This document shows, one piece after another, positions 1-13,897 of a stretch of 22,340 bases of DNA. The position numbers and the translations under genes were made by a program. Source of the stretch: Verrucomicrobiota bacterium (GTDB taxonomy: Bacteria; Verrucomicrobiota; Verrucomicrobiae; Chthoniobacterales; UBA10450). How positions within the stretch are numbered: position 1 is the stretch's first letter; each line of letters opens with the position of its first letter. Under the pieces are notes generated by a model. The model made no database searches, was not told where the DNA came from, and saw only the letters and a list, made by a program, of their open reading frames with translations. The stretch lies in the NCBI GenBank assembly GCA_005887855.1, contig VBQB01000113.1, forward strand, positions 1 to 22,340, given 5' to 3'.

Positions 1-66
1 GTTGTATACTTCAAAACACGCGCCGATAATCGCGTAGCTTTCTTTTTTAAATATAATTTCTGTCAT
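1..66 (-). CDS. GxxExxY protein, N-terminal fragment (runs off window)
   Basis: Reading leftwards from the ATG at 66-64 gives 22 codons that stay open to the window edge. The visible peptide contains ESYAIIGACFEVYN, which matches the start of the small GxxExxY family (a Gly-x-x-Glu-x-x-Tyr-like core near the N-terminus, about 125 residues when complete). The family's function is not established; a nuclease-like role has been suggested. It sits 33 bases downstream of the nuoK stop on the same strand, where nuoL would normally follow, so it interrupts the complex I gene order. A three-unit nonamer array fills the gap before its ATG and there is no clear Shine-Dalgarno. Only the N-terminus is visible, so intactness is unknown. 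Confidence 0.72.
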   Translation of the reverse strand, partial: MTEIIFKKESYAIIGACFEVYN

Positions 67-70
67 CTGT

Positions 71-97
71 ATTTGCGTCAATTCGCGTAATTCGCGG
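71..97 (-). repeat. Nonamer tandem array (3 x 9) before GxxExxY
   Basis: Three 9-base units lie at 71-79, 80-88 and 89-97 (ATTTGCGTC, AATTCGCGT, AATTCGCGG on the plus strand). They fill nearly all of the space between the nuoK stop and the GxxExxY start. Only one polarity is visible here. Confidence 0.75.
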
Positions 98-99
98 GT

Positions 100-420
100 T
101 TAGAATTTCAAAGCGCTGATGTCTTTGACGTCGGTGGTTCGCCGTGCGCGAAAGAGCGCGACGATAATGGCGAGTCCTACGGCGACCTCAGCCGCCGCGA
201 CCGTGATGATAAAGAAAACGAAGACCTGCACGTTGTAATCAGGCAAACCAGTAGGTTGAACGCGAGATCTTGAGAAGGCGACGAGCGATAGATTTGCCGC
301 GTTCAACATCAGCTCCAGCGACATCAGAATGATGATGAGATTGCGGCGCACCATCACGCCGGCGAACCCGACGGCGAAAAGAACGCCGCTGACAAGGAGA
401 TAATCGCCGAGCGTGATCAT
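100..420 (-). CDS. nuoK: NADH-quinone oxidoreductase subunit K
   Basis: This 106-residue, three-helix inner-membrane subunit is part of the proton-pumping arm of complex I and is related to MrpC antiporter subunits. Its length equals the usual 100-110 residues. The core [21 protein letters not shown] contains the conserved membrane glutamate ([10 protein letters not shown]), and a second buried acidic residue lies in [12 protein letters not shown]. The ATG at 420-418 begins one base after the nuoJ stop, so translation is probably coupled. Gene order I-J-K is the standard one. Downstream the operon continues into a GxxExxY gene, not directly into nuoL. Confidence 0.96.
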
Positions 421-421
421 G

Positions 422-925
422 CTATCGAGGTTCGCGTTGGCTCAAAATGACAACGCCAATCGTCGCCACCAGCACAAGAACGCCGATGATTTGAAACGGC
501 AGATTGTAATTCTCGAAAAGCAACGACCCAACGTTGCGGACATCGTCGGTTGTCGATCTTGCCAGAGGAGGAAAAGTTTGTCCGGCAGATTTAAGATGGC
601 CGATTACATAAAAAATCTGGATGAGCAACGCGAGCGCGACGGCGATTCCGCCCGCCGAGGCCAGCCAGTTAATGTGGCGTCCTTCTTCAGCGCGAAGATC
701 GAGAAGCATGATGATAAAAAGAAAGAGCACCATCACGGCGCCGGCATAAACCAGGACTTGAATGATGCCGATGAAGTAGGCATCGAGCGACATGAAGAGC
801 GCGGCGAGCCCAAGGAACGAAACGACGAGACTCAGTGCGCTCGCCACCGGATTGCTGTTGATGACCACAGCGGCGCCAAAGATCAACATCAAAAGCGCAA
901 AGATCCAAAATAGGAACGGAGGCAT
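422..925 (-). CDS. nuoJ: NADH-quinone oxidoreductase subunit J
   Basis: This 167-residue membrane subunit of complex I (five predicted helices) belongs to the NuoJ/ND6 family. Family features seen are the N-terminal helix [20 protein letters not shown], the sequence [49 protein letters not shown] with the characteristic [18 protein letters not shown] segment, and a C-terminal helix [16 protein letters not shown]. NuoJ helps form the hinge between the quinone site and the pumping modules. It is separated from nuoI by about 100 bases holding an inverted octamer array, an unusually long gap inside a nuo operon, and ends one base before nuoK. Confidence 0.96.
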
Positions 926-935
926 GACGGCGCGC

Positions 936-1022
936 TAATGGAGTAATGGAGCCATGGACTAGTGGACTATCGAATTCTCTCCGACCGGCACTCGATTTCT
1001 CCAATACTCCAGAACTCCAATC
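936..1022. repeat. Inverted octamer array between nuoI and nuoJ
   Basis: The left arm has four consecutive 8-base units at 936-967 (TAATGGAG, TAATGGAG, CCATGGAC, TAGTGGAC). The right arm has three units of opposite polarity at 999-1022 (CTCCAATA, CTCCAGAA, CTCCAATC). About 30 less regular bases lie between. The reverse complement of the right arm reads as TGGAG-containing octamers like the left arm, so the segment can fold back on itself. It fills the gap between nuoI and nuoJ and no ORF with family support lies in it. Confidence 0.8.
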
Positions 1023-1026
1023 TGCT

Positions 1027-1557
1027 TCATTTCTTCTCGTTCCATTTCACAACAACGCCGTGCATTACGCCGCCGATTTTCAGCAGCTTTTCCTTGTCAT
1101 GCACCATATCTGCCCGCGTGAATCCAGTGATGGCGTAGTCTTTGCGCAGAAAAATCGCCTGCTCGGGACAGACCTCCTCGCACATTCCGCAGAAAATGCA
1201 GCGGATCATGTCGATATCGAATTCCTCGGGGTATTTTTCGACTTTGGCGAAGCGGTCCGTCGAAGGAATTTCGCCTGGAATAATTTTGATTGCGCGCGGC
1301 GGACAAATAAATTCGCATAGCTGACAAGCCACGCAGCGCACATGACCGTCCGAGTCTCGTACGAGCGCGGGTGCCCCGCGGTAATGGTCCGGCAGGCTAC
1401 TATCCCATTTTTCTTCGGGATATTGCATCGTGACCTTCGTGCGTCCGAGCAGCATGTTTTTGAAATGCTTCAGGGTGATGGCAAGGCCGGCGACGATTGC
1501 AGGGAGGTACATTCGCTCGCGCCAGTTGAGCTTTGGTCGTGAAACGGTAACGGTCAT
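1027..1557 (-). CDS. nuoI: NADH-quinone oxidoreductase subunit I
   Basis: This peripheral-arm subunit of complex I carries two [4Fe-4S] clusters (N6a and N6b) that pass electrons from NuoG towards the NuoB cluster. Both ferredoxin motifs are present and complete: CVACQLCEFICP and CIFCGMCEEVCP. I chose the ATG at 1557-1555 (MTVTVSRPKL, 176 residues). A GTG five codons upstream at 1572 is open but lies in the nonamer repeat and adds a GGF extension not typical of the family. There is no strong Shine-Dalgarno for either start. Both flanks are repeat arrays (1567-1651 and 936-1022), so nuoI is bracketed by two of the unusual elements. Confidence 0.95.
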   Translation of the reverse strand: MTVTVSRPKLNWRERMYLPAIVAGLAITLKHFKNMLLGRTKVTMQYPEEKWDSSLPDHYRGAPALVRDSDGHVRCVACQLCEFICPPRAIKIIPGEIPSTDRFAKVEKYPEEFDIDMIRCIFCGMCEEVCPEQAIFLRKDYAITGFTRADMVHDKEKLLKIGGVMHGVVVKWNEKK

Positions 1558-1566
1558 CTTAAAACC

Positions 1567-1651
1567 GCCCACGAAACAAGCGAAGGAACACGAAAACCTT
1601 GGTCAAATCATTCACGAAATTTTTTCGTGTCATTTTGTGTGTTTAGTGGGC
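1567..1651. repeat. Inverted nonamer array overlapping the nuoH stop
   Basis: The left arm (1567-1597) shows 9-base units CCCACGAAA, CAAGCGAAG, GAACACGAA. The right arm (1620-1651) shows TTCGTGTCA, TTTTGTGTG, TTTAGTGGG. The two arms are imperfect reverse complements over about 31 bases, with the outer GCCCAC/GTGGGC and inner CACGAAAA/TTTTCGTG blocks best preserved. The right arm runs over the last codons and TAA of nuoH, so the element supplies the end of that gene. The left arm reaches the upstream alternative GTG of nuoI. Confidence 0.78.
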
Positions 1652-2746
1652 AAAAGCTAAAATCCCGGCAGCGATGAAAATGTTGACGAGTGCGATCTCG
1701 AAAAAGAAGAGCCAGCCGAGCCGCATGAGTTGATCGTAACGAAAACGCGGCAGCGTCCAGCGAACCCAGATAAAGAAAAAGAGTAGCGCAGTTACCTTCG
1801 CGAAAAAGGTGACGATGTTAAATAAACCTCCCATCACGCCACGCCAGCCCGGTGCGGATCCATCGATAAGGACCCAGTGAAATCCGCCATACAAAGATGG
1901 AAGCGGCAGATGCCAGCCGCCAAAAAACAAAGTTACGATGATAGCCGAGCCTGTGATCATGGCTGCGTATTCGCCGAGAAAAAAGAGCGCGAACTTCATT
2001 GACGAATATTCTGTGTGGTAACCACCGGCGAGCTCCTGCTCGGCTTCGGGAAGATCGAAAGGCAATCGATTCGTCTCGGCGAAAATAGCGATCGCAAAAA
2101 CGAGGAATGAAATGAGCATGGGAATTGCGAGCAACCACTTCCAAGGATTCATCCAGTCGCCGATAAAAGGTGCGATCATCCAGCCGTGCTCAATTTGATA
2201 GCGGACAACGCTGGTCAGGCGCAAATTTCCGACGAGCAAAAAAATTGGAATGACCGCCAGTCCAAGCGACAGCTCATAGGAAATCATTTGCGAACTGGAA
2301 CGCACACCGCCGAGGAATGGATATTTGGAATTGGACGCCCAGCCGGCGAGAACAATCCCGTAAACCCCCAATGAAGCGATGGCGAACACATATAAAATTC
2401 CGACGTTGATGTCCGCGATCACCATTGGAACGCCGAAAAGCGTGCTGCCAAATGGAACGACCGCGATCGTGATGATTGCCGGCATCATCGCAAGACATGG
2501 AGCGAGCCAGTAATAAAACGTGTTTACGTGGCGCGGACTGAAATCTTCTTTCAGCAGCAATTTGAAAATGTCGGCAATCGGTTGAAAAAGACCTGCAGGA
2601 CCGACCCGATTTGGACCCCTCCGATCCTGAATAAATGCGCTGACGCGCCGTTCTGCGTAAACGCTGTAGGAGACCATCGGCAGGATCACGAGGAAAAGGA
2701 TTCCGACGATCTTGAGTAGCGACGTGATGATCAGAAAATAATCCAT
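1643..2746 (-). CDS. nuoH: NADH-quinone oxidoreductase subunit H
   Basis: NuoH (ND1 family) is the membrane subunit of complex I that contacts quinone and joins the hydrophilic and membrane arms. At 367 residues it is slightly longer than many homologues (about 325-350). Diagnostic segments are YAERRVSAFIQDRRGPNRVGP near residue 30, the long loop ending in LKEDFSP, GVRSSSQMISYELSLGLAV, and AETNRLPFDLPEAEQELAGGYHTEYSSMKFALFFLGEY, the strongest family signature. The ATG at 2746-2744 has a good Shine-Dalgarno (GGGAG about 7 bases upstream on the coding strand). A 203-base gap with mini-hairpins separates it from nuoG upstream. Its last codons and stop lie in the right arm of a nonamer repeat. 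Confidence 0.97.
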   Translation of the reverse strand: MDYFLIITSLLKIVGILFLVILPMVSYSVYAERRVSAFIQDRRGPNRVGPAGLFQPIADIFKLLLKEDFSPRHVNTFYYWLAPCLAMMPAIITIAVVPFGSTLFGVPMVIADINVGILYVFAIASLGVYGIVLAGWASNSKYPFLGGVRSSSQMISYELSLGLAVIPIFLLVGNLRLTSVVRYQIEHGWMIAPFIGDWMNPWKWLLAIPMLISFLVFAIAIFAETNRLPFDLPEAEQELAGGYHTEYSSMKFALFFLGEYAAMITGSAIIVTLFFGGWHLPLPSLYGGFHWVLIDGSAPGWRGVMGGLFNIVTFFAKVTALLFFFIWVRWTLPRFRYDQLMRLGWLFFFEIALVNIFIAAGILAFAH

Positions 2747-2820
2747 CTCGATCTCCCAGCTCTAGTGTGTTGTAACAGGCGCAGCTTTACAACGACCGAT
2801 CTTTTACAGAATTTCGACGG

Positions 2821-2912
2821 CTGATCAGCCAAGGCCGCAGCGCCTGCTTTCGCCAGCGGATAACACGCGGCGTGTCACCAGGGTCCACATCAAGTGCGCT
2901 GAAGCAGCGCAC
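2821..2912. repeat. Mini-hairpin cluster between nuoG and nuoH
   Basis: The 203-base gap 2747-2949 holds no convincing gene. It contains tight palindromes: ACACG-CGG-CGTGT at 2863-2875 and an exact 8-bp stem with loop AAG at 2894-2912 (GTGCGCTG/CAGCGCAC). A looser GC-rich stretch with CCGCAGCGCC lies at 2835-2845. The same style of module recurs in other gaps of this window. It could act as a transcription attenuator or an RNA-processing or stability element inside the operon; that role is inference. Confidence 0.6.
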
Positions 2913-2949
2913 ACGACACCACTGAGGGCTGCAGGTTGGATGGCAGAGC

Positions 2950-4674
2950 CTAACGCCCTGGCGGTCTTTCCGATTCCGCTTTTTCGATATCTTTCGCCGC
3001 AGGATCGACGGGCGGAGCAGGGGATTCGTGCGCTTGCTCGATTTGCACGCCGAGGTCGCCGATTTTGCTCAAGCTCAATCCGGCGAATTGTGGAACGGCT
3101 TCTGCCATCTGCCGAAAAACATCTTCGATCAAATAGATGCTGTTATGACCGGAACACGCCTGGATCAAGTCGCGCAAGATTTCCCAATCGTCCCGCGCTT
3201 GGCCCGGTGCGCGCACGGCGCGATTGAGCCGTTGCAGACGGCCTTCGCCGTTGATCATCGAGCCACGCTTTTCCGCGAAGGTAAACGAAGGGAACACCAC
3301 CGTCGCATATTCCGTCGCAGCGTTTGACAGAATGTCCATCACGATGAAGGCCGGGAGATTTTCGAGGTCTCCCGCCGAAATTCCCAATCGCATCGGGTTT
3401 TCGCCGAGGGTGATCAATACTTTGACGCGCCCAGAACTCACGGCCTCCGCGATGGTGGGTAATTTCGCGCCTGGCTGCGAGGTTACGCCGAGCAATTGAG
3501 CGCCGTTCGTGTTCGGGTTGCGATCTTCGCTCAGGAGAATGTCATCGCCGGGACCCGTGCGCGGCACGATGTCGATCAACTGAACGTCGAGCGTCTTCGC
3601 GAGTTGCCGCGTCAGCCAAAGTTCTTCATTGGTCATCCGGCCCGAAGCGATGATCGCGATTTCCGGGCCTGAGAACTGTTTCAACTGGAGCGCCGCTTGC
3701 GCGATCACGATTTGCCAATCGGCGGCGACAAGTTTTTTATTGGAGACGATCTGTGGCTCGAGCAATCGTCGTTCCGATTGAATATAATCGAAGTTGAGGC
3801 GGCCGTAATCGCACATCCAGCACGAGTTCACCGCATCGTTCTCCCGCGGGGTCTGCCGGTAAATGACATCTTCGCGCGTGCCAATGATTGTGTTGCAGCC
3901 AGTGGCACAACTCGTGCAGATACTTTTTGTTTCTTTCAAAAACCAGACACGCATCTTAAAACGAAAGTCGGTCGAGGTGAGCGCGCCGACCGGACAAATA
4001 TCGACGGTGTTAAGGGAATAATTGTTCTCTAGCTGGTTGCCGGGATGCGCGGTCAACACGGTATAACTGCCGCGATCGACAAATCCGAGCACGTCATCCT
4101 TCGCAATTTCCTGGCAAAACCGAATGCAGCGCGAGCAGAGAATGCAGCGCTCATCATCGAGAGTAACGCGTGGCCCGAGTACCACGTTTTTCGGTTTCTT
4201 TACTTTGTTCTCGAGAAACCGCGACTCACTCGTGCCGTACTCCACGCTGAATTCTTGCAAGCGGCATTCGCCAGCCTGATCGCATATCGGACAATCCAGC
4301 GGATGATTGATGAGCAGAAATTCCATTACGCCGCGCTGACACTCCTTCACCAACGGCGAATTCGTACGCACGCCCATGCCTTCGGCGACATCCTGTGCAC
4401 AGGAAATTTGCGGACGCGGCATCCAGTTGATCACGGGTTTGCCGTCGGGGCCCAGCTCAGGTTTGCGGTCAGGACCGAGCCTGGGCATTCCCATCTCGAT
4501 CAAGCACATCCGGCAATTGCCCGGTGAACTGAGCTTCTTGTGATAGCAATAACGTGGCACGTAACTGCCTGCCTGTTCGCACGCCTCGATTACGCGCGTG
4601 CCCTTCGGGAATTGATGCCACACGCCGTCGATCTGGACGTTGAACATCTGCGGCGATGACACTGGATCGGCCAT
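2950..4674 (-). CDS. nuoG: NADH-quinone oxidoreductase subunit G (short form)
   Basis: NuoG carries electrons along the peripheral arm of complex I. Cluster ligands seen are: [2Fe-2S] N1b C43, C54, C57, C92; the N5 motif with H124, C128, C131, C137; N4 C177, C180, C183 and C227; and an N7-type set C253, C256, C260, C288 (27 residues between the last two, the same spacing as in E. coli). The remainder is a shortened molybdopterin-oxidoreductase-like domain (about residues 290-545) and a Pro/Glu/Lys-rich tail. At 574 residues it is much shorter than the E. coli protein (about 900). The ATG at 4674-4672 gives MADPVSSPQ, directly followed by the 2Fe-2S domain. It lies between nuoEF and nuoH, with repeat-filled gaps on both sides. 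Confidence 0.95.
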   Translation of the reverse strand: MADPVSSPQMFNVQIDGVWHQFPKGTRVIEACEQAGSYVPRYCYHKKLSSPGNCRMCLIEMGMPRLGPDRKPELGPDGKPVINWMPRPQISCAQDVAEGMGVRTNSPLVKECQRGVMEFLLINHPLDCPICDQAGECRLQEFSVEYGTSESRFLENKVKKPKNVVLGPRVTLDDERCILCSRCIRFCQEIAKDDVLGFVDRGSYTVLTAHPGNQLENNYSLNTVDICPVGALTSTDFRFKMRVWFLKETKSICTSCATGCNTIIGTREDVIYRQTPRENDAVNSCWMCDYGRLNFDYIQSERRLLEPQIVSNKKLVAADWQIVIAQAALQLKQFSGPEIAIIASGRMTNEELWLTRQLAKTLDVQLIDIVPRTGPGDDILLSEDRNPNTNGAQLLGVTSQPGAKLPTIAEAVSSGRVKVLITLGENPMRLGISAGDLENLPAFIVMDILSNAATEYATVVFPSFTFAEKRGSMINGEGRLQRLNRAVRAPGQARDDWEILRDLIQACSGHNSIYLIEDVFRQMAEAVPQFAGLSLSKIGDLGVQIEQAHESPAPPVDPAAKDIEKAESERPPGR

Positions 4675-4682
4675 TATCTTTT

Positions 4683-4757
4683 CGTCATCGCGCCCATGCT
4701 CTTGATCGTAATCGAAAAATATCGATCACGATCACGAGTATGAGCACGAGCAAGAGG
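4683..4757. repeat. Inverted hexamer array between nuoEF and nuoG
   Basis: The right arm (4719-4757) is built of 6-base steps such as ATCACG, ATCACG, AGTATG, AGCACG, AGCAAG. The left arm (4683-4714) is its imperfect reverse complement. From the centre outwards about 25 of 33 positions match, and the core pairs are GATCGTAATCGA with TCGATCACGATC around a short A/T loop. It fills almost the whole gap between the nuoEF stop (4766) and the nuoG start (4674), and in the operon mRNA would fold into a long hairpin just before nuoG. Confidence 0.8.
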
Positions 4758-4765
4758 TTTCATCT

Positions 4766-6751
4766 TCAGATTGTCCCCGCGGCGCCGGCTTTTTCCCAGC
4801 CCGGATCGTGGGCGAGGGGAGCAGTGGCAATCTTATCCTCTTCAATCAGTTCGCCGGGCGTGTATTCAGGGGGAAGTGGCGGTGGCATTGGTTTTTTGGC
4901 GCGCTCGGCAAATTCTTCCCGGAATTTCTCGACAAAACTTTGCGTCGGCCACGCGCATGCTTCGCCAAACGCGCAAATCGTACGGCCGGCGATGTTGTCG
5001 CCAATGGTTTTGAGTGTCTTTGGATCTTCCGTTACGCCCCCGCCAAGCAACATGCGGTCGGTTATTTTTTTCATCCAAAGCGAGCCTTCCCGGCAGGGCG
5101 TGCATTGGCCACAGCTCTCGTGCGCATAGAATTCGTTGATGTTATTGAGCGTCCAAACCATGTCGCGGGAATCGTCGAGCACGATCACACCGCCGGAACC
5201 GGCCATCGAACCTGCTGCGGTGAGCGAATCGAAATCCATAGGTATGTCATCGATCGACATCTCGCGTTCGATGGTCGATCCATCGGGTTGCTTTTGCTTG
5301 AGTTTGAATCGCTCGTCCGCTCGCAAGACTTTGGCTGAGCTCCCACCGGGGATCACCGCCTTCAGTTTTCGCCCGGGTTTTAATCCGCCAGCCATTTCGT
5401 GGACCAACTGACCCATGGTCACTGCGCCAACTTCGATTTCAAAATAACCGGCTCGCTGCACATCGCCGCTTACACAAACGATGCGCGTTCCGGTGTTATT
5501 CTGCCGTCCCAGTCGCGCATACTGTGCGCCACCCATCGCGATAATGTGTTTCACGTGGCAAAGTGTTTCGACGTTGTTCACGATTGTCGGGCACATGTAG
5601 AGACCAAGCACGGCAGGAAAATAAGGCGGCTTAATGCGCGGATAACCGCGTTTGCCCTCGAGTGATTCGATCAAGCCAGTTTCTTCGCCGCAAATGTAAG
5701 CGCCGCCGCCGCGATGAATGTAAACCTCGACATCGAACTCGGAGCCGAGAATGTTCTTGCCGAGGAATTTGCGCTCCCGCGCTTCTTCGATGGCGCGTTC
5801 AAGGATTTTCGCGCCTTCGGGGAACTCGCCTCTTATATATATGTACGCCGTCCGGGCGTTCAGCGCGAAACAGGAGATCAGAATTCCTTCGAGCAGTTGG
5901 TGCGGATCTTCGTGGATGATATATCGGTCTTTGAACGTGCCCGGCTCGGACTCATCCGCATTGCAGATCAAATAGACCGGCTTCTTCTCATCGGGCTTGA
6001 TGAAGCTCCACTTCACGCCGCACGGAAATCCTGCGCCGCCACGCCCGCGCAACCCGGAGGTCTTGACCTCATTGACGATCTCGACGCGCGACATCGTAAT
6101 TGCCTTCCGCAATTGTTCGTAACCGCCATCACGCAGGTAGGTATCGATGTCGATCCTCCAGTCGTCGCGTCCGATATTTTTAAAAATCAGGCGACGTTCG
6201 AGCGGATGAGGAGATGTTTGACGTTTGATGTTTGATGTTTGACTTCGGAGAAGCTCCAGCACGGACTCGGCGCGTACATTCTCGCGTAGGTTTTCGCCGA
6301 TCATGCACACGGGCGCAGTGCCGCAACTTGCCAGGCATTCGACAAACTCGATGCTGTAATTTCCATCAGGGCTCACCGAAATGGGATTGTGCATTCCATC
6401 GCTCTGACGGTGTCGCTCAATTCCAGCCGCCCCGCATAAGTTTTCCATCAGCTGATAACTACCTGCCATCGCGCAACTGAGCGTACGACAAACACGGATA
6501 TGGGTTTTGCCGGCAGGCTCCGGGCGAAACATCGGATAGAATGTGACCAGTTCGAAAATATTGATCGGCTGCAATTGGAGTTTCGCGGCGATCCATTGCA
6601 CCCCTTCATCGCTGATAAAGCCGAAGTGTTCCTGCCACAAATGCAGCAGTGGCATCGCCGCGCTTCGCCGGTGATCCTTCGGATAACGCGCGATCGCCGC
6701 ATCCGTTTTGCGCTCCAACTCGGCGGGAACGCGTGTGCTCGTCGAGTCCAC
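4766..6751 (-). CDS. nuoEF: Fused NADH-quinone oxidoreductase subunits E and F
   Basis: One uninterrupted 661-codon frame encodes both NADH-input subunits of complex I. Residues 1-168 are NuoE (thioredoxin-like, [2Fe-2S] N1a ligands C88, C93, C139, C143). Residues 186-661 are NuoF, with FMN/NADH motifs [11 protein letters not shown] (233-243), [13 protein letters not shown], and [19 protein letters not shown], and the N3 [4Fe-4S] ligands in [13 protein letters not shown] and TICAFGEAC. The linker (about 169-184) is encoded by a heptamer array (6215-6242). I see no stop or start codon separating the halves. The GTG at 6751-6749 is the start that gives a full NuoE N-terminus; no strong Shine-Dalgarno is seen, and the preceding lipoprotein stop is only 12 bases away. 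NuoF stays intact and should still bind NADH and FMN. Confidence 0.94.
6215..6242 (-). repeat. Heptamer array (4 x 7) inside the NuoE-NuoF linker
   Basis: Four 7-base units lie at 6215-6221, 6222-6228, 6229-6235 and 6236-6242 (TGTTTGA, CGTTTGA, TGTTTGA, TGTTTGA on the plus strand). Read on the coding strand they specify the low-complexity linker [10 protein letters not shown]. The same kind of short-period array is otherwise between genes here, which suggests that this one was once intergenic. Confidence 0.85.
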
Positions 6752-6763
6752 GAAAGCGGAAGA

Positions 6764-7069
6764 CTAGTCGGACAACGTGCTGTCTTTTGACTGCACTTTA
6801 TCGTCTTTAAAAACGATCGTCACCGTGTCTTTGCCCTGGCGGTAAACGTAGGTCGTTTTTTTCATGATAACGAAATCCTCGTTGTTGATGGAAGTGGCGG
6901 GGCCAAGGATCGATTCCACCTGCTTTTTCGACATTCCCTCGGCCACCTCATCGACGTTCGCTTTCGTGATTCGCTTGCCTGGAGTGCATGCACTCAAACC
7001 AACCAAACTCAAAGCGAGGAGCGCTGTGATCGAGATTCGCCGCATTGATCTAAAGATCGACATATTCAT
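6764..7069 (-). CDS. Small BamE/SmpA-like lipoprotein
   Basis: The 101-residue product starts with a short basic segment and hydrophobic stretch (ISITALLALSLVGL) followed by the lipobox LSAC, giving lipid attachment at C28. The mature part, ITKANVDEVAEGMSKKQVESILGPAT then a beta-rich stretch (TYVYRQGKDTVTIVFKDDKV), matches the SmpA/OmlA (BamE-like) fold: two helices with a GMSxxQVxxILG signature and a small sheet. I chose the ATG at 7069-7067 because it overlaps the nuoD stop as ATGA (4 bases), typical of coupled translation; an ATG three codons upstream is also open. Its role in a complex I operon is unknown. It could be an outer-membrane assembly factor or an unrelated lipoprotein with the same fold. 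Confidence 0.82.
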   Translation of the reverse strand: MNMSIFRSMRRISITALLALSLVGLSACTPGKRITKANVDEVAEGMSKKQVESILGPATSINNEDFVIMKKTTYVYRQGKDTVTIVFKDDKVQSKDSTLSD

Positions 7070-8322
7070 CTGTCGCATTCGCCCATGACGAAGTCCAGAC
7101 TGCCCAGCACAGCGGGCACGTCGCTCACCATGCAGCCTGGCAAAAGCTCGGGCAGGATGCTTAGGTTCACAAACGATGGTGCGCGAATTTTCAGCCGGTA
7201 CGGCACGCCGCCGCCCTTGCTGTTAATGTAAAAGCCGAGCTCGCCTTTTGGATTTTCTGCCGCGAAATAAACTTCGCCCGGCGGCGCGTCGAGTCCTTCC
7301 GTCACGACGATGAAATGATGGATCAACTCTTCCATCTTCGTCATGACCTGCGATTTTGGCGGCGTCATGTTTTTCCAATCCGCAACGTTGATCGGTCCGC
7401 TTGGGAGTTTATCGATCGCCTGGCGCAAGATGCGCACGCTTTGCCGCATTTCTTCGATTCGCACCAGATAGCGATCGTAACAATCTCCCGCGCTCCCGAT
7501 CACGACATCGAAATCGTAATTCTCGTAGTCGAGGTATGGATGTTTGCGCCGCAAATCATGTTCGATCCCGCTACCGCGCAAATTCGGACCGGAGAGCGCA
7601 TAGGCAATCGCGCGATCCTTCGGAATGATGCCAACATCCCTTGTTCGATCGACAAAAATGCGATTGCGCGTGAGCAATTTGTCACACTCATTGAGGCTCG
7701 GAATAAATTCATCGAGGAACTTTTTGAGCTGCGGGATGAAACTTTCGGGAAGATCACGAATCTGTCCGCCCACGCGGGTGTAGGACGTGGTGAAGCGCGC
7801 GCCGGTCAACAGCTCGAAAAGATCATAGAGTTTTTCGCGCTCGGTGAACGTGTAAAGAAAAACCGTCATCGCGCCCAAGTCGAGAGCCATCGCGCCGAGA
7901 CCGAGCAAGTGTGACGAGATGCGCGATGTTTCGCAGCAAATCGTCCGAATGGCTTTTCCGCGCGCCGGGATTTCCCAGCCCATCAATTTTTCGACCGCAA
8001 GCGCGTAAGCGACGTTGTTTGAAAGCGGCGCGAGATAATCGAGTCGGTCCGTGTAGGGCACGAACTGGTTGTATTGCATGTTCTCGGCGATTTTTTCGTC
8101 GCCGCGATGCAGAAAGCCGATGTCTGGCGTCGCTTTTGTGATGATTTCGCCGTCAAGCTCGAGTACGAGGCGTAAAACTCCGTGCGTCGCCGGATGTGAC
8201 GGCCCCATGTTCAGCACCATCTTCTCACCGATGTCGTCATCGGGATGCCGCAGTTTTGCGTCCGCCGCGACTACTCGCGTCACCGGATCCGGTGATTCAA
8301 TCTCGCGTGTCGTGAAGGGCAT
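7066..8322 (-). CDS. nuoD: NADH-quinone oxidoreductase subunit D
   Basis: This 49-kDa-type subunit of complex I lines the quinone pocket together with NuoB and is related to the large subunit of [NiFe] hydrogenases. Its 418 residues are full length. Clear signatures are LNMGPSHPATHGVLRLVLELDGE, PDIGFLHRGDEKIAE, YTDRLDYLAPLSNN, ETSRISSHLLGLG, GPNLRGSG, and the C-terminal VPYRLKIRAPSFVNL with DVPAVLGSLDFVMGECDR. The ATG at 8322-8320 is the first in frame and leaves about 35 residues before the conserved core. It is the promoter-proximal gene of this operon: upstream DNA is divergent towards fabD and contains no nuoA, nuoB or nuoC. Its stop overlaps the lipoprotein start. Confidence 0.97.
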   Translation of the reverse strand: MPFTTREIESPDPVTRVVAADAKLRHPDDDIGEKMVLNMGPSHPATHGVLRLVLELDGEIITKATPDIGFLHRGDEKIAENMQYNQFVPYTDRLDYLAPLSNNVAYALAVEKLMGWEIPARGKAIRTICCETSRISSHLLGLGAMALDLGAMTVFLYTFTEREKLYDLFELLTGARFTTSYTRVGGQIRDLPESFIPQLKKFLDEFIPSLNECDKLLTRNRIFVDRTRDVGIIPKDRAIAYALSGPNLRGSGIEHDLRRKHPYLDYENYDFDVVIGSAGDCYDRYLVRIEEMRQSVRILRQAIDKLPSGPINVADWKNMTPPKSQVMTKMEELIHHFIVVTEGLDAPPGEVYFAAENPKGELGFYINSKGGGVPYRLKIRAPSFVNLSILPELLPGCMVSDVPAVLGSLDFVMGECDR

Positions 8323-8388
8323 AACAAGTTTGACTACGCTCGCGGCAGAGGATAAGCGCGCAAGCGTAATTTCCCATTCACGTCTTCT

Positions 8389-8515
8389 GGGAGCACAGGC
8401 TGCTACCCTGTAGTTTGCGGCAGCTTTGCCGCGAACAGCTAACGAAACGACTTGATTCCCCGCAGCTGTGGTCGGCGCAGCGGCCGACTGTTACAGGCCA
8501 GCGGCCTGTGCTCCC
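8389..8515. repeat. Nested mini-hairpin element between nuoD and fabD
   Basis: An exact 12-base inverted repeat (GGGAGCACAGGC at 8389-8400, GCCTGTGCTCCC at 8504-8515) encloses smaller palindromes: 8413-8436 (10-bp stem, one mismatch), 8471-8488 (GTCGGC/GCCGAC) and 8493-8509 (ACAGGCC-AGC-GGCCTGT, perfect 7-bp stem). It lies in the only divergent intergenic region of the nuo side (8323-8570), which must hold the promoters for nuoD and fabD. I cannot identify convincing -35/-10 pairs in that region. Confidence 0.75.
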
Positions 8516-8570
8516 CCGAAACACAATGCGCTCGCGTCAGCATGTGAAGCGCGTTAACTACTCTGCGCGT

Positions 8571-9509
8571 ATGGCACAAAAAAAGATTGCGCTGCTCTTT
8601 GCCGGCCAGGGCGCGCAGACCGTTGGGATGGGACGCGATTTAGCGGAGCAATTCCCTGTGGCAGCGGATTTGTTTCGGCAAGCGGATGAAATTCTCGGAC
8701 GGAAGTTGAGCGATATTGCGTGGAGCGGTCCTATTGAAGAATTGACCAAGACTTCGAACTGTCAGCCGGCGCTTTATGTTCACGGACTCGCCTGCTTGTC
8801 GATCTTGCGCGAGCTGGCTGGCAGTTTTCCGATTGGAGGTAGCGCCGGTCTGTCGTTAGGCGAAATGACTGCGCACGCCGCTGCCGGTACGTTTGACTTC
8901 GCCATCGGACTCAAGCTGGTGCAAAGGCGGGGCGAATTGATGGATGAAGCCTGCGCCGCGACCAACGGAGCGATGGCAGCAATGATCGGCGGGGATGAAG
9001 CCGCGGTGCGCGCGCTGGCCGCGGACGCAGATGTCGATGTTGCAAACATCAATGGGCCGGGACAGATCGTGATCTCCGGTGAGAAAGCAAAAGTGGAGAT
9101 CGCGGTCGGCCTGGCCAAGGAACATGGGATTCGGCGCGCGACCCTACTCAACGTGGCGGGCGCGTATCATTCGCGTTTGATGGAAGGCGCCTACCAAAAG
9201 CTGGGCGCGGTGCTGTCCCACGTCCCGGTGCAACCGCCGCGTTTTCCTGTGATTAGCAACGTGACCGGCGCTGAAGCGACAACCCCGATTGAAATTCGAC
9301 GCACGTTGCAGGATCAGGTCACGGGCACCGTGCGCTGGCTCGATTGCATGGAGCGACTGGCCGAGCTTGGCTGCGATTTTTTTATTGAGTTGGGACCGGG
9401 CGGCGTGCTTGCTGGCTTATTGAGACGAACACGCAAGGACGTGGACGTGATGGGCGTCAGCGATTTCGCATCTGTGCAAGCGTGTGCTGAGAAACTGCGC
9501 GGCGGCTAG
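8571..9509 (+). CDS. fabD: Malonyl-CoA:ACP transacylase
   Basis: FabD moves malonyl groups from CoA to acyl carrier protein in the cytoplasm, feeding fatty-acid elongation. The 312-residue length is normal. It shows the LFAGQGAQTVGMG start, nucleophile S95 in GLSLGE, the malonate-binding arginine region QRRGELM (about 118-124), H200 in AGAYHSRLM as partner base, and the C-terminal FFIELGPGGVLAGLLRR. I start at the ATG 8571 because MAQKKIALLFAGQG aligns with the family; the frame is open upstream with another ATG at 8526, but that extension is basic and unlike the family. No strong Shine-Dalgarno is visible. Other fab genes are not adjacent. It is divergent from nuoD. Confidence 0.95.
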   Translation: MAQKKIALLFAGQGAQTVGMGRDLAEQFPVAADLFRQADEILGRKLSDIAWSGPIEELTKTSNCQPALYVHGLACLSILRELAGSFPIGGSAGLSLGEMTAHAAAGTFDFAIGLKLVQRRGELMDEACAATNGAMAAMIGGDEAAVRALAADADVDVANINGPGQIVISGEKAKVEIAVGLAKEHGIRRATLLNVAGAYHSRLMEGAYQKLGAVLSHVPVQPPRFPVISNVTGAEATTPIEIRRTLQDQVTGTVRWLDCMERLAELGCDFFIELGPGGVLAGLLRRTRKDVDVMGVSDFASVQACAEKLRGG

Positions 9510-9525
9510 CGGAGGAAATCTTCCG
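9510..9525 (+). terminator. Possible weak hairpin terminator after fabD
   Basis: Directly after the fabD TAG, CGGAGG-AAAT-CTTCCG forms a 6-bp stem with one G-T pair and a 4-base loop. The next bases are A/T-rich but there is no clean T run, so this is weak. It lies in the short convergent gap between fabD and the propeller pseudogene. Confidence 0.3.
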
Positions 9526-9597
9526 ATCAAAATTTCACTGTCCGGAACGGCCGGGGAGACAGGTCACGGTGAATCGTTTCGAGGAGTGCTTCGGCCT

Positions 9598-10518
9598 CTA
9601 CTTGTCTGCCTGAAGAACTATCTCGCGGATGATCGTACGACGCGGCAGGGAAGACGTTGATTCGTTGACATACTCGTTGATATAGAACCGACGCCCATAT
9701 GGAGAAGACGCAATTCCGTTGGGGAAAGAGAGCCGCGCCTTTGCGCCCGCTCCATCCACAATCCCGTGTTCGCCATTACCAAGGATACGCTTGACGGTTC
9801 CATCTAACCTTACTTCGTAAATGGCGTGCGATTCATGCGCGGTGACATAGAATCGATCCTCCTTGAAGCATAAGTGCCCCAACCCCTTTTCGGATACTGT
9901 CGCGAAGGGCGCGACAACACCCCTTGGATCGATCTTCAGCATCTTGTTGTCTCTGTAGTTGACGACATAGAGGTTTCCCTCGCGATCGAAGGCGATGCCA
10001 TTTGGACAACGGAGAAGATCGCTTTTGGCGAATGGCGAAACGGTGCCATCGCGCGCAATCCTGGCGATCGAATTGCCGCTGCAGTTTGCGACGTAGATAT
10101 CGCCCGTTTGCCTGTTGACCGCTACGCCAACAGGGCCGCTCAGGCCGCTGGTGACGAATGGCGTCGTTTGACCTTTTCGATCAATCCTGGTGATTCAATT
10201 GCCGTAGAAATCCGATTGCAGGAGGTTGCCTTCGTTGTCGATCGCGTTTCCGGATGCGCCGTAGAGGTCCGACGCAAAGACGTGACGCTCGCCTTCCGGC
10301 GTGATCTTCCAGACGAAATCGCCAAAGTCTGCGACATAGATGTTCCCGACGAGATCGGTCGTTACACCACCGGTGCTGTGGCCGTTAATAACACCAGTAA
10401 GCGAACGGATTTCCGTCTCTGCGCGTGCAGAAACCGCCGCAAAGAGTAGCGCCAACACGAACCATGGTGCGCGACTGCGTCTCGTGGGGACGATGATGGG
10501 ACCGATCATCGAACGCAT
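9598..10518 (-). pseudogene. Secreted NHL/SMP-30-type beta-propeller, one in-frame stop
   Basis: One frame from the ATG at 10518 to the TAG at 9598 (307 codons including the final stop) is continuous except for a TGA at 10197-10195. The product would have a signal peptide (hydrophobic WFVLALLFAAVSARA, cleavage likely after ARA) and repeated blades of the form GNIYVADFGDFVWKITPEG, GNLYVVNYRDNKMLKIDPRG, typical of NHL/SMP-30/virginiamycin-lyase-like propellers. The TGA stands where the next blade reads GNSIARI (TCG for Ser), so a single C-to-G change in a Ser codon explains it. A strong AGGAG lies at 10529-10525, 6-7 bases before the ATG. The frame stays clean after the stop, so inactivation is recent, or the base is a sequencing error. 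Confidence 0.8.
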
Positions 10519-10622
10519 CGTGCTCTCCTATGCGTGCAGCCACGAGCCGTCAAGTTCCTCGTAAATGCTTACCTCTCTTGCTCTCATTGGAATGCAAGAC
10601 GTAACAGCTAACGCATTCTGCG

Positions 10623-10984
10623 ATTTCATTATCTCTGGCCGACCTTACTTGTGCTTCGCTTATTCCCTCGGCCGGATTTTTCAAAACCGCTCAGAGCCTC
10701 ATCAATTGGCGCGCATTCAGTTTCACTTTCTTCCTCCTGCTCCTGATCAGTCTGCTCTGGAAGTGACGCTTGCTCTGCCCTACAGCTGGTGGCGATATCG
10801 TGACGAGGCAATGATCGGCCTGAAGATCGGTGCTTGGTCCGACTTACCCATCGAACCGATCTGCGTCTGGATGGCTGTGACCTCCACAACCGTGATCGTC
10901 TACGCGCTGATCAAAATCTGGAAAGCGCTCGGCATACGGGCCCTCTCGGCGTTCTTTGGGAACGCCCGACGTCAGACGTGGTGA
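10623..10984 (+). pseudogene. Frameshifted remnant of an integral membrane protein
   Basis: The 3' half, in the frame ending at the TGA 10982-10984, reads VTLALPYSWWRYRDEAMIGLKIGAW then DLPIEPICVWMAVTSTTVIVYALIKIWKALG, which looks like two conserved membrane segments. The 5' half is sensible only in a different frame: KTAQSLINWRAFSFTFFLLLLISLLW, which runs into a TGA at about 10760. A one-base indel around 10755-10763 joins them. No start codon or full-length N-terminus is found upstream. The GxWxxLPIE-like pattern recalls carotenoid/lycopene-cyclase-type membrane proteins, but I do not assign a function. It is followed by 53 bases without a gene. Confidence 0.6.
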
Positions 10985-11037
10985 ACCGTACCACAACAAG
11001 GTTGCCGGTCTTGTCGGCCCTGCCATAGTTTGTCCGG

Positions 11038-11375
11038 ATGAGCATTCAAGAGCGCATCGATTCTGATCTGAAGGATGCAATGCGGGCCAAGGACACGACG
11101 AAACTGGGGGTTCTGCGTATGATCAAATCAGCGTTGAAATACGCTGCGATCGCGAAATCTGACGCAGAAGCCGAGCTGAGTGAGGCCGAAGCGACGCAGG
11201 TCATTCGCAAGCAAGCCAAACAACGCCGAGATTCGATCGAGAGTTTTGAAAAAGGCGGTCGCGCCGTATTACAAAGGCGCAGATGGGTGCGGTCATGAAA
11301 GCGTTGCAAGCGAAAGTGGCGGGTCGCGTCGATGGCAAGACGCTGAGCCAGGAAGTGTCACGGCAGTTGTCGTGA
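11038..11375 (+). pseudogene. yqeY: YqeY/GatB-related protein with internal deletion
   Basis: Codons from the ATG at 11038 give a normal YqeY N-terminus: MSIQERIDSDLKDAMRAKD, LGVLRMIKSALK, then KQRRDSIESFEKGGR. The family's C-terminus appears in a different frame, TKAQMGAVMKALQAKVAGR and DGKTLSQEVSRQLS, ending at the TGA 11373-11375. About 40 residues that normally lie between (the EKAEIxxLxxYLP region) are missing, and the frame changes at about 11255-11275. YqeY is usually about 148 residues and related to the GatB tail domain that helps tRNA-dependent amidation; its own role is poorly known. As it stands the N-terminal frame ends after 86 codons. The octamer array begins three bases after the stop. 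Confidence 0.85.
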
Positions 11376-11378
11376 CGT

Positions 11379-11474
11379 GTTGAAGAGACGAAGGGTTGAA
11401 GCGATGAAGCCATTTGGCGATTCAACGTTTCAACATTTGAACGCTTTAACCCTTTAACGCTTCAACACTTTAAC
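11379..11474. repeat. Twelve-unit octamer array with polarity switch before ispD
   Basis: Exactly 96 bases divide into twelve 8-base units in one register. Units 1-4 (11379-11410) are GTTGAAGA, GACGAAGG, GTTGAAGC, GATGAAGC. Unit 5 (11411-11418, CATTTGGC) is the turning point. Units 6-12 (11419-11474) are GATTCAAC, GTTTCAAC, ATTTGAAC, GCTTTAAC, CCTTTAAC, GCTTCAAC, ACTTTAAC. The first group is the reverse complement type of the second (GTTGAAGC against GCTTCAAC), so a hairpin is possible. It fills the whole gap between the yqeY stop and the ispD ATG and leaves no room for a normal Shine-Dalgarno. Confidence 0.9.
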
Positions 11475-11475
11475 A

Positions 11476-12189
11476 ATGCTCAGTGCCATCATCGTCGCAG
11501 CGGGCAGCAGCCGGCGCATGGGGTTCAATAAATTGTTTGCGGCAATCGCGGGGAAACCGGTGATTACGCACACCATTCGTGCATTCGAGCGCGCCAGTTC
11601 TGTTACCGAAATTATCGTCGTCGCGTGCGAAGAGCGACATGACGAAATTAAAAAGATCGCCGCCAATGAAAGCTTCAAGAAAGTCCAATCGATCATCGGT
11701 GGCGGCGAACATCGACAAGATTCTGTCAGTGCCGGTTTGGATCACCTGAACGTCGACGCGAAATATGTCGCAGTGCATGACGCCGCGCGTCCGTTGATCA
11801 CTGCAGAACAAATCGAGCGCGTCTTCGTGCAATGCCACGCGCACGGTGCCGCTGCCTTGGCTGAGCCAATTAACGACACGATCAAACGCGTCGATGTCGA
11901 TCCATTCGGCTCACGCTCAGGACAAGTTCTTGTCGTCGCCGGTTCCGTGGATCGACATCAACTTTATGCCATGCAAACGCCCCAGATTTTCAAGCGTGAG
12001 TTGATCGAAGAAGCTTATCGCGCCGTCTACACGGAAAGAGTTTCGGTGACAGACGAAGTTTCCGCGGTTGAGCGGCTCGGTGGCAAAGTGATTCTCGTAC
12101 TCACCGATGACTTCAACTTCAAAGTCACTTACCCACGCGATTTGCCACTGGCGGAGTTCATCCTGAGCCAACGGACGCGCGGTGCCTGA
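11476..12189 (+). CDS. ispD: 2-C-methyl-D-erythritol 4-phosphate cytidylyltransferase
   Basis: IspD joins MEP to CTP to give CDP-methylerythritol in the non-mevalonate isoprenoid pathway, in the cytoplasm. The 237 residues are full length. Motifs are the nucleotide-binding AAGSSRRMG (8-16) followed by K19, the GGGEHRQDSV segment, VHDAARPL (100-107), AMQTPQIF, VTDEVSAVE, and FNFKVTYPRDL at the end. The ATG at 11476 directly follows the octamer array by one base; there is no purine-rich ribosome site other than what the array gives (the last units are CTTTAAC types), so translation may be weak, leaderless or structure-controlled. It converges with the glycosyltransferase gene, stops 27 bases apart. 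Confidence 0.95.
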   Translation: MLSAIIVAAGSSRRMGFNKLFAAIAGKPVITHTIRAFERASSVTEIIVVACEERHDEIKKIAANESFKKVQSIIGGGEHRQDSVSAGLDHLNVDAKYVAVHDAARPLITAEQIERVFVQCHAHGAAALAEPINDTIKRVDVDPFGSRSGQVLVVAGSVDRHQLYAMQTPQIFKRELIEEAYRAVYTERVSVTDEVSAVERLGGKVILVLTDDFNFKVTYPRDLPLAEFILSQRTRGA

Positions 12190-12216
12190 GATCGAAACGC
12201 AAGGGCAGCTAAAATT

Positions 12217-13188
12217 TTAAGCCAGCATTGGGTCGACCGGCACGAGTGGCCGAATCAACTCGGCTGCGGCAGGGACATCTTTGCACCTGAAACGACGGCC
12301 GCGCCTTCGAAGCTCGGCGATTTCGAGTTCGCTGACGCGCAGAAGTAGGCCGTTTTTCCAAACCCAGGCGTTCCGATTATAGGGGCCGACCCGGCGTGGG
12401 TCGGTCCAGGTGTGGACCGACAACAAGTTGTCGGTCACGGCGGCGGCAATGTGCATCGGACCGCTGTCCACACTCACGACGAATCGCGCGACGCGAATGA
12501 GCCGGATCAATTGAAGCAGTGAAGTTTGGTTGGTCAGATCAATGCAATTTCCCGGCGTGTCGATCTTGCGTCGCGATTGCCCGACGACCACGACGCGCGT
12601 GGGAGCAAGAGCGCCGCAGAATTCTTCGATTACCGCGTTAGAGAGCGATTTTCCATCGCCGCGCGCAAATGGGTGAAGAAGAATGAACGGCGGATACTCA
12701 TCGAAACGCGGAAGCGGATCTCCCGTCGGAAGCGGCCAACGAAGCGACTCGCCAATAGCGGCGCCAGCGCATTCGGCGAGCTTAAGATATCGGTTAACGG
12801 CATGCCCGCGGCGATTGACTTTGGCGACACGATCATAAAAAAAGCGCGAACCTTCACGCCCATCGCTCATCCCGTAAATTTCTTTGGCCCCGCTGATCCT
12901 TGCGATGAGCGCGCTGCGCAGCAATCCCTGGAAATCCAGCGCGAGATCGGCCCGAATCCCTCGGGTTTTCTTCAACCACGGCAGCAGGCTCCTGGGCGCC
13001 CCGAGGCCTCGGAATTGACCGCGCGGAAAGAAGTGGACGTGGTTCACATCAGAATTTCCGCGGAGCAGCGGCGCGAACTCGGGATTAATGACCCAAGTAA
13101 TCTCAGCGCCAGGGTGCGCCTCGCGAAGCAGAGCTACCGCTGGGAGCGTGTGGACGATGTCGCCGAGCGAACTCGGCTTGATGATCAA
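12217..13188 (-). CDS. Glycosyltransferase family 9 (heptosyltransferase-like)
   Basis: This 323-residue GT-B fold protein resembles the ADP-heptose:LPS heptosyltransferases (WaaC/WaaF family) that build the lipopolysaccharide inner core at the inner membrane. Seen are the N-terminal IIKPSSLGDIVHTLPAVALLREAHP with the GDIVHTLP signature, DLALDFQGLLRSALIA, ILLHPFARGDGKSL, and the donor-binding FVVSVDSGPMHIAAAV. No ATG is available near the conserved N-terminus: a TGA lies nine codons upstream and the choices are TTG at 13188-13186 or the ATC/CTG codons before it. I take the TTG. A heptamer array begins 12 bases upstream and replaces any Shine-Dalgarno. It is the last gene of the minus-strand block and follows the broken phosphoesterase. 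Exact sugar substrate is unknown. Confidence 0.85.
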   Translation of the reverse strand: MIIKPSSLGDIVHTLPAVALLREAHPGAEITWVINPEFAPLLRGNSDVNHVHFFPRGQFRGLGAPRSLLPWLKKTRGIRADLALDFQGLLRSALIARISGAKEIYGMSDGREGSRFFYDRVAKVNRRGHAVNRYLKLAECAGAAIGESLRWPLPTGDPLPRFDEYPPFILLHPFARGDGKSLSNAVIEEFCGALAPTRVVVVGQSRRKIDTPGNCIDLTNQTSLLQLIRLIRVARFVVSVDSGPMHIAAAVTDNLLSVHTWTDPRRVGPYNRNAWVWKNGLLLRVSELEIAELRRRGRRFRCKDVPAAAELIRPLVPVDPMLA

Positions 13189-13200
13189 GATCGATTTAGG

Positions 13201-13235
13201 ATTCAGAGTTCAGGTTTCAGGCTTCAGGGTTCCCG
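13201..13235. repeat. Heptamer array upstream of the GT9 gene
   Basis: Five 7-base steps lie at 13201-13235 (ATTCAGA, GTTCAGG, TTTCAGG, CTTCAGG, GTTCCCG), ending 12 bases before the GT9 start codon. Between it and the phosphoesterase stop, the stretch 13236-13260 holds CCTACGCCAAGGCTACGGCG, another short palindromic motif, and 13273-13286 holds two more 7-base steps (CAGTGGT, CAGTGAT) with a different unit. The whole gap 13189-13287 is thus repeat-derived. Confidence 0.75.
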
Positions 13236-13287
13236 CCCTACGCCAAGGCTACGGCGCGGCAGAATCAGCTGCCAGTGGTCAGTGATC

Positions 13288-13897
13288 TCATCGCCCAATC
13301 GCCAGCCGCTCGGCGAGCAACCGCGGCAAGCCCGCCTTGATGATCTTCTTTTGCGCGGTGGCTAGATCATATTTTAATCGCCGTTGCTGGACGACGTTGT
13401 CCTCGGTGTCATATATGCAGTAAGCAGCGCGCCAATTTCCGTCGCGTGGTTGACCAACGCTGCCCGTATTGATGAAATATTTGTTGCTCGCGTCGATGCG
13501 GATGTGTTCGAGCCTCTCCCGTCTTACGCCATCGCCGCGAATAAATACCATCGGGACATGGGTGTGGCCGAAAAAACAAACTGTCGTGTGTTGGTAAGTG
13601 AAGCTGGCAGCGGCGTCGAGATTATTAAAAACGTAGCCCCACTGCGCTGGGGTATCGAGTGTCGCGTGCACGATGGTAAAATCGTGCACCCGTTGCTGCA
13701 ATTGCATCGTGATTACCTTTCACGATGGGGCAATCCATTTCCCGGACGCGGCGCACGCATTCGTGAGGGTTGGCGTTGTAACCGACCACGTCGCCCAGAC
13801 AAACAAAGCGTGTGCACTTGCGGTCGCGCGCATCCGCCAGCACGGCCTCCAGTGCCTCGAAGTTGGAGTGGATATCACTGAAAACTGCGAAACGCAT
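13288..13897 (-). pseudogene. Calcineurin-like metallophosphoesterase with internal deletion
   Basis: From the ATG at 13897 the frame gives a standard phosphoesterase start: FAVFSDIHSNFEALEAVL with D-x-H, CLGDVVGYNANP with GDVVGY, and VKGNHD. Immediately after GNHD the frame becomes senseless and stops at 13625. The C-terminal half lies in another frame from about 13705 to the TGA at 13288: LQQRVHDFTIVHATLDTPAQWGYV, CFFGHTHVP (GHTH metal ligands), FINTGSVGQPRDG. About 40 residues normally between GNHD and the HDFTIVHA region are missing, with a frame change near 13693-13712. All metal-binding motifs survive in pieces but not in one protein. It is 12 bases downstream of the TPR-like gene and upstream of GT9. 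Confidence 0.85.

Follow-up and report, generated by a model that had tools for sequence, protein, structure and literature searches.

Intervening sequences (IVSs) are found in the 23S rRNA of Coxiella, Leptospira and Brucella. They form hairpins with terminal inverted repeats, and their loop holds a gene of the S23p/IVP family (PF05635). In Coxiella, tandem heptamers (GACAGAT) are reported to precede the S23p gene (PMC4990558). In this study, we analyzed a window of 22,340 nucleotides (positions 1 to 22,340 of contig VBQB01000113.1, assembly GCA_005887855.1) from a Verrucomicrobiota soil bacterium, in which seven sites carry short tandem arrays of period 6-9. These arrays are, with high probability, the arms of small intergenic hairpin elements whose full copies carry a GxxExxY or an IVP gene in the loop. 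The 23S rRNA IVSs are the nearest known system: they too are hairpins made by terminal inverted repeats, with a loop gene of the IVP family. The present elements differ in that those with an IVP gene in nuo loci sit between protein genes, that a second, unrelated nuclease gene (GxxExxY) occurs in the same arrangement, and that copies with no gene are frequent. We found no Rfam match at gathering score, and so no rRNA match, in 60 IVP loci (L111-L140, L250-L279) with flanks of up to 1.5 kb; these include 30 of the 70 IVP places tested for arms in related genomes (see below).

Intergenic heptamers are also known from other bacteria. Xanthomonas carries GGGAATC and Nostoc GGGGA(T/C)T; two genomes of Xanthomonas have 70 and 75 pairs in inverted orientation, and the report treats the repeats as quadruplex sequences, generally without a link to mobile elements (PMC4692102). 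The words S23 and 23S do not occur in it, and a text search did not find GxxExxY there. One IVP element of our set (L279) has the arm CGGGAATCGGGAGTC, and the Xanthomonas and Nostoc heptamers may be linked to hairpin elements. The TAACTGA repeats of Beggiatoaceae form intergenic heptamer sets that mostly precede start codons, in the largest class with a distance of 1 nt between the end of the set and the start; 169 direct sets and one inverted repeat are described in the available part of the report (PMC4679880). The gene-bearing hairpin is a feature of the present elements, and that part describes none. In titles and beginnings of abstracts, from a collection without bioRxiv and most subscription journals, we found no link between GxxExxY or extra-rRNA IVP genes and inverted arms of short tandem repeats.

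In sequence, the window is similar to Candidatus Udaeobacter and further members of Chthoniobacterales, with 92-96% NuoD identity to loci L001-L025. As relatives we used the best 80 of 314 loci found (L001-L080). GxxExxY was present in 14 of 16 related genomes and IVP in all 16. We aligned the left flank of each gene with the reverse complement of its right flank, and found that inverted arms with a score of at least 26 flank 46 of 50 GxxExxY and 58 of 70 IVP places. Among 400 random pairs, all drawn from a single genome, 5 reached this score. The places comprised the best loci and further picks down the match lists, not all matches. The test is strand-symmetric (L081-L140 are given in genome strand), and where a contig ends within a locus, the place of the gene had to be assumed, so that an arm match may have been missed. 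The arms are tandem: no more than 2 of 50 shuffles reached the periodicity of 54/57 testable IVP and 33/44 testable GxxExxY arms. The best period was 7 in 42/58 IVP arms and 8-11 in 34/46 GxxExxY arms.

Furthermore, the association extends beyond close relatives. Among 145 genomes drawn from Verrucomicrobiota, IVP exceeded the cut-off in 92 and GxxExxY in 67; at the best-scoring loci, arms were found at 24/30 IVP (control 1/30) and 29/30 GxxExxY places (control 0/28). Five of nine matches on plasmid records of other phyla (two in Gemmatirosa, one each in Bernardetia, Bacteroides and Sphingomonas, the last between fabD and fabG) had arm scores of 36-119, compared with shuffle maxima of 22-26. 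A Fusobacteria plasmid record scored 24 against 22 in shuffles, and records of Persicobacter, Treponema and Prevotella did not score above shuffles. In phages, one IVP locus gave no match by distant blastn, and on viral contigs six stretches fit a GxxExxY pattern, none of which was confirmed. The GxxExxY protein (TIGR04256/PF13366) showed the family score, the nuclease fold and the active-site D and K of a PD-(D/E)XK nuclease. The strict motif D..[ED][VILT]K was present in 40/50 sequences, and a variant was seen by eye in 8 of the other ten.

The arrays themselves were detected by Tandem Repeats Finder (TRF) and a separate autocorrelation scan for periods 6-9, with Markov copies made from the window at orders 1, 3 and 5 as the null. 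TRF called arrays at 71-96 (period 9), 936-966 (period 8), 4723-4756 (period 6), 6216-6243 (period 7), 11379-11474 (period 8, several rows) and 13198-13232 (period 7). The scan found five with a score of at least 14 (starts 936, 4692, 6213, 11373, 13193), and the Markov copies held only 0.1-0.25 arrays per copy even at a score of at least 12. Site 71-97 fell below the scan threshold, and site 1567-1651 was called by neither detector because its spacing is irregular. In the relatives, 161 arrays of score at least 14 occurred in 1.14 Mb of the 80 loci, compared with 4 in order-3 Markov copies; 155 of them lay in 0.92 Mb of L001-L066 (2 in the copies), and the 0.22 Mb of L067-L080 had the other 6. 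Between nuoD and nuoK, in L001-L066 and the window, 91 arrays lay in 47 kb outside the nuo and lipoprotein alignments and 9 in the 396 kb covered by them, as counted with a corrected NuoF query. Thus the arrays, first described by reading of the window, are real and far commoner than in randomized DNA. The original prediction of one family by design, with a different unit at each site and mostly in gaps, was also borne out, as was the distinction from CRISPR. It had missed that a given unit can turn up again elsewhere, at further sites and in further species.

We then compared the arrays with a library of arms from gene-bearing elements (scores of at least 30 in the first version, a cut of 23 in the widened one, which was used for the relatives), with reversed or complemented arms as null libraries. 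Of 179 arrays in the relatives, 117 scored at least 30, and the null libraries caught 32. Restricted to arrays more than 400 bp from a GxxExxY or IVP match, 102/164 fit the library (null 32/164), and 51/78 did so when they also lay outside the library-source genomes (null 13). In sharing inverted repeats with gene-bearing elements, gene-less arrays resemble miniature inverted-repeat transposable elements (MITEs). In the window, arms were matched at all seven sites, five of them in the first library and the other two, 936-1022 and 6213-6243, in the widened one only. The original prediction had missed this match. Polarity was that of gene-bearing elements at 71-97, judged by the adjoining gene, and at the four window dyads (the two single arms, 6213-6243 and 13193-13235, are outside this count); in relatives with a near partner arm it agreed in 33/34 calls, and in 12/13 outside the library genomes. 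One gene-less family was dispersed, with 0-136 matches per genome and matches in 12 of 16 genomes (20-base pattern, up to 2 mismatches, overlapping matches within an array counted), which points to copying at some time.

To describe what fills the nuo gaps, we compared orthologous gaps, those involving NuoF resting on an out-of-frame NuoF query. This comparison, suggested originally, showed gaps that a single hairpin spans from stop to start codon, with a unit that may vary by species. In the window, the arms of the nuoH-nuoI gap are of ACACGAAA type. In relatives, this gap holds period-7 TTCGTCA arms (L012, L033 and L056), period-9 ACAGGATTA arms (L028, L034, L044, L045 and L050) or period-6 CTCGTG arms (L051 and L062). 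In L003 and L025 the same gap carries a four-helix-bundle gene (TIGR02436; PF05635, 23S rRNA IVP) between the arms, the PF05635 match being in L025. In the nuoF-nuoG gap, many relatives have a small GxxExxY gene between arms (TIGR04256, 128 bits; PF13366, PD-(D/E)XK), and in L002 this gap has no gene, although its right arm is of GxxExxY type and part of the left arm is present. The nuoJ-nuoK gap measures at most 5 nt or is an overlap in 26 of 31 rows, and holds elements of 119-208 nt in L003, L019, L033 and L044. By reading, L027 and L060 have a second hairpin nested in the loop of the first.

Both loop genes are under purifying selection: pN was below pS in 46/46 GxxExxY and 49/49 IVP orthologous pairs (pairs share genes and are not independent), and dN/dS was 0.05-0.19 where dS was finite (13 GxxExxY and 11 IVP pairs). 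At non-orthologous sites, arm similarity tracked protein similarity (rho 0.22 and 0.26; 0 of 500 permutations reached either). This correlation fits arms that are recognized by, or travel with, their own protein.

Arm similarity within an element and between orthologs was 0.71 vs 0.54 for IVP and 0.77 vs 0.73 for GxxExxY, the within-element values being inflated by the picking of arms through within-element matching. In some orthologous IVP elements the units were wholly different in both arms, which suggests homogenization of the arms; the mean effect is clear for IVP only. Because both arms differ together in several orthologous elements, slippage with strand switching, as proposed in the original prediction, is plausible as a way of keeping units and arms alike; it does not define the family. 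Local microsatellites, newly formed at every site by slippage and strand switching with no element or gene involved, would account for units that differ between sites and for arms more alike within an element than between orthologs (21/30 IVP and 24/41 GxxExxY pairs, a count favored by the choice of arms). But the same units with a shared irregularity occur at many sites in 12/16 genomes, and their polarity is fixed. Moreover, arms lie at 104/120 places of two gene families, against a control of random pairs, and a chance origin would not target both. The earlier distinction from ordinary microsatellites was therefore upheld, and we consider this explanation very unlikely.

The reading as hairpin elements suggests the following model. 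A full element has a left arm built from several degenerate tandem units, a loop, and a reverse-complement right arm, with one gene in the loop, as seen in relatives, encoding either the GxxExxY PD-(D/E)XK nuclease or the IVP four-helix bundle. Gene-less forms may arise through loss of that gene. The element would be co-transcribed with its neighbors and fold, as computed, to a long hairpin, which is probably an RNase III substrate by analogy with the 23S rRNA IVS hairpins. The loop-gene protein may recognize the repeated arms and promote copying or retention of the family, so that gene-less copies ride along, and slippage and arm-to-arm copying would keep units and arms alike.

Several observations weigh against this reading. 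Arms over the threshold were not found at 4/50 GxxExxY and 12/70 IVP places, nor at 4/9 plasmid-borne relatives. Among the 179 arrays, polarity could not be called for 67, and a further 78 lacked a partner arm within 150 bp. Foldseek returned no match at E <=0.001 for the GxxExxY nuclease model. No non-orthologous gene-bearing copies were near-identical among the 45 pairs listed, the best reaching about 75%; recent movement of full elements is therefore not seen, and full elements look old from their sequences. Finally, covariation among the nuoI-nuoJ hairpins (8 sequences) gave a term of 0.08, with 4/26 pairs changed on both sides, and so gave no support for a conserved RNA structure in this gap.

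The covariation result also bears on selected operon hairpins, which would be kept for mRNA processing or stability, with gene-bearing copies incidental. This explanation fits the stop-to-start placement, the filling of one gap by different units in different species, and strong folding in 11 of 12 stretches, all chosen by hand. In the window, folding against shuffles confirmed the fold-back proposed for four sites: z was -2.37 for 926-1026 (6/200 shuffles folded as well), -4.35 for 1565-1652, -7.43 for 4678-4760 and -5.57 for 11370-11476. At 13190-13300 there was no fold-back (z -0.23). Beyond the covariation term, operon hairpins are opposed by the empty nuoJ-nuoK gap of most relatives, and they leave two gene families with their own arm periods unexplained. 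We regard them as unlikely. Terminators were considered and rejected, with 15 terminator-like sites in 1-13400 compared with 16.0 in shuffles; one such site (+1613-1629) lies inside the nuoH-nuoI hairpin.

Another possibility is movement of repetitive extragenic palindromic (REP), REPIN or MITE-like sequences by a RAYT or other Y1 transposase. The elements are indeed palindromic and extragenic, Y1_Tnp matches occurred in 16/16 genomes, and in REP/REPIN systems, too, a protein that possibly acts on short extragenic palindromes is found next to them. In the flanks of 20 Y1_Tnp genes, 18 places reached 26 within 500 bp, a length for which there is no random control. REP/RAYT was rejected by reading of the flanks: none of the 20 was flanked by tandem arms, 16 (L230-L245) had non-tandem REP-type palindromes, and L247 and L249 were ambiguous. 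These palindromes form a population separate from the tandem arms, which makes transposition by a Y1 enzyme highly improbable.

In an RNA-mediated route, a reverse transcriptase acting in trans would receive the hairpin RNA from the Avd-related IVP protein, and reverse transcription would give rise to the short repeats. A review describes PF05635 as similar to Avd, the accessory protein of diversity-generating retroelements, and points to a structural alignment of both (PMC10053308); a hairpin RNA with tandem reiteration would also fit. The GxxExxY type carries no Avd-like protein, and RVT_1 was found in 6/16 genomes vs IVP in 16/16. A reverse transcriptase in every host is thus rejected, and the template-copying enzyme of the original prediction is not supported as a general cause. 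We judge this route quite unlikely.

Taken together, the hairpin elements would connect repeats and genes that were so far described apart. GxxExxY and IVP/S23p, widespread families without an assigned role, would gain a genomic home and a testable substrate in their own repeated arms. At many sites in conserved operons, it becomes possible to track how elements insert, how they lose the loop gene and how their repeat unit turns over. The heptamer-type repeats known from separate reports on several bacteria could prove to be a single phenomenon. A broader proposal, to which we give somewhat less than an even chance, is a bacteria-wide class of extra-rRNA hairpins with two unrelated proteins, a PD-(D/E)XK nuclease and an Avd-like four-helix bundle, each of which acts on its cognate, self-homogenizing short-tandem arms. 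If true, this class would explain the GxxExxY and IVP genes and the 6-9-nt repeats of many genomes (Xanthomonas, perhaps Nostoc), and the 23S rRNA IVSs would be members that landed in rRNA.

The window features are listed in the table below. The nuo genes, named by reading of the window open reading frames (ORFs), occupy 100-8322 on the minus strand, and the window holds no tRNA and no known RNA family. Six of the seven sites, in which no GxxExxY or IVP gene was found, comprise four complete hairpins and two single arms. The exception is 71-97, where the original prediction of arrays with no ORF of their own was wrong: a start codon at 66-64 (minus strand) follows the array and opens the GxxExxY-like frame MTEIIFKKESYAIIGACFEVYN. 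The array is therefore the arm before a gene cut by the window edge. The DNA of 1-66 aligns with the start of a GxxExxY gene after nuoK in L007, which also has this arm.

Table. Element arms and the partial loop gene in the window, with library match scores given against the best null score.
Feature	Position	Strand	Evidence
GxxExxY-like gene, first 22 codons (MTEIIFKKESYAIIGACFEVYN)	1..66	-	Translation; gene runs off window edge
Left arm of cut GxxExxY element, period ~9, ACGCGAATT	71..97	-	L104 GxxExxY arm, 34 vs null <=17
Right arm, period 8, CTCCATTA, nuoI-nuoJ gap hairpin	936..968	-	Widened library: IVP L137 arm, 27 vs null 18
Left arm, period 8, TTGGAGTA, nuoI-nuoJ gap hairpin	986..1022	-	Widened library: IVP L137 arm, 27 vs null 17
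Right arm, nuoH-nuoI gap hairpin	1567..1597	-	GxxExxY L145 arm, 33 vs null 20
Left arm, CACTAAACACACAAAATGACACGAAA, nuoH-nuoI gap hairpin	1622..1651	-	GxxExxY L145 arm, 48 vs null 21
Right arm, period 6, nuoF-nuoG gap hairpin	4690..4718	-	IVP L173 arm, 26 vs null 18
Left arm, period 6, CTCGTG, nuoF-nuoG gap hairpin	4722..4757	-	IVP L134 arm, 44 vs null 35
Single arm, period 7, TCAAACA, NuoE-NuoF linker	6213..6243	-	TRF; widened library: IVP L124 arm, 26 vs null 21
Left arm, period 8, GTTGAAGC, hairpin upstream of presumed ispD	11379..11410	+	IVP L136 arm, 40 vs null 25
Right arm, period 8, GCTTCAAC/GCTTTAAC, hairpin upstream of presumed ispD	11420..11475	+	IVP L131 arm, 33 vs null 23
Single arm, period 7, TTCAGGN	13193..13235	+	IVP L113 arm, 51 vs null 26

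The two arms of the nuoI-nuoJ hairpin had no match above the null in the first arm library, and the unit at 936-968 is shared with all 7 relatives aligned. The arm at 6213-6243 is the weakest match in the window (20 vs null 21 in the first library). It is translated in frame as the linker of a fused NuoE-NuoF (ORF 4766-6751); placement in gaps or at gene ends, as first described, thus holds for most sites and fails for this one. L054 has a NuoE-NuoF fusion without the array. The gene downstream of the hairpin at 11379-11475 is one that we take to be ispD. The TTCAGGN arm at 13193-13235 has no partner arm. After it, 13236-13300 holds a non-tandem palindrome-like stretch and then a GTGGTCAGTGATC piece resembling another IVP arm family, and so resembles a composite or decayed site.

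We also noted other sequences in and around the gaps of the relatives. Hairpins of another family, whose arms (GTCATCCCGAGCGGAGCGAGGGATCTC ... GATCCTTCACTTCGTTCAGGATGAC) are not tandem, occupy gaps and nest in loops of tandem-arm elements; this family was located in the nuoD-lipoprotein gap of L027 and L060 and in the nuoI-nuoJ gap of L007, L020, L022 and L056. The insert in the nuoJ-nuoK gap of L045 differs from the tandem-arm elements: it measures 160 nt and carries CGTTAGGC close to each end. In four loci an ORF takes the place of GxxExxY in the nuoF-nuoG gap (L038:7291-7590, L052:13792-14085, L067:12841-13140 and L080:9399-9653); we presume it to be clan-AA aspartic-protease-like. In the nuoH-nuoI gap of L066 (17119-17477), the IVP gene matches in two overlapping pieces and may be broken. 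In L013, L015 and L025, the lipoprotein gene that follows nuoD begins with period-6 CTCGTG arrays, as if the arm had been taken over for the hydrophobic leader. Finally, an unusually long perfect TTCGTCA array of at least 9 units was found at G012:C13:43765-43833.

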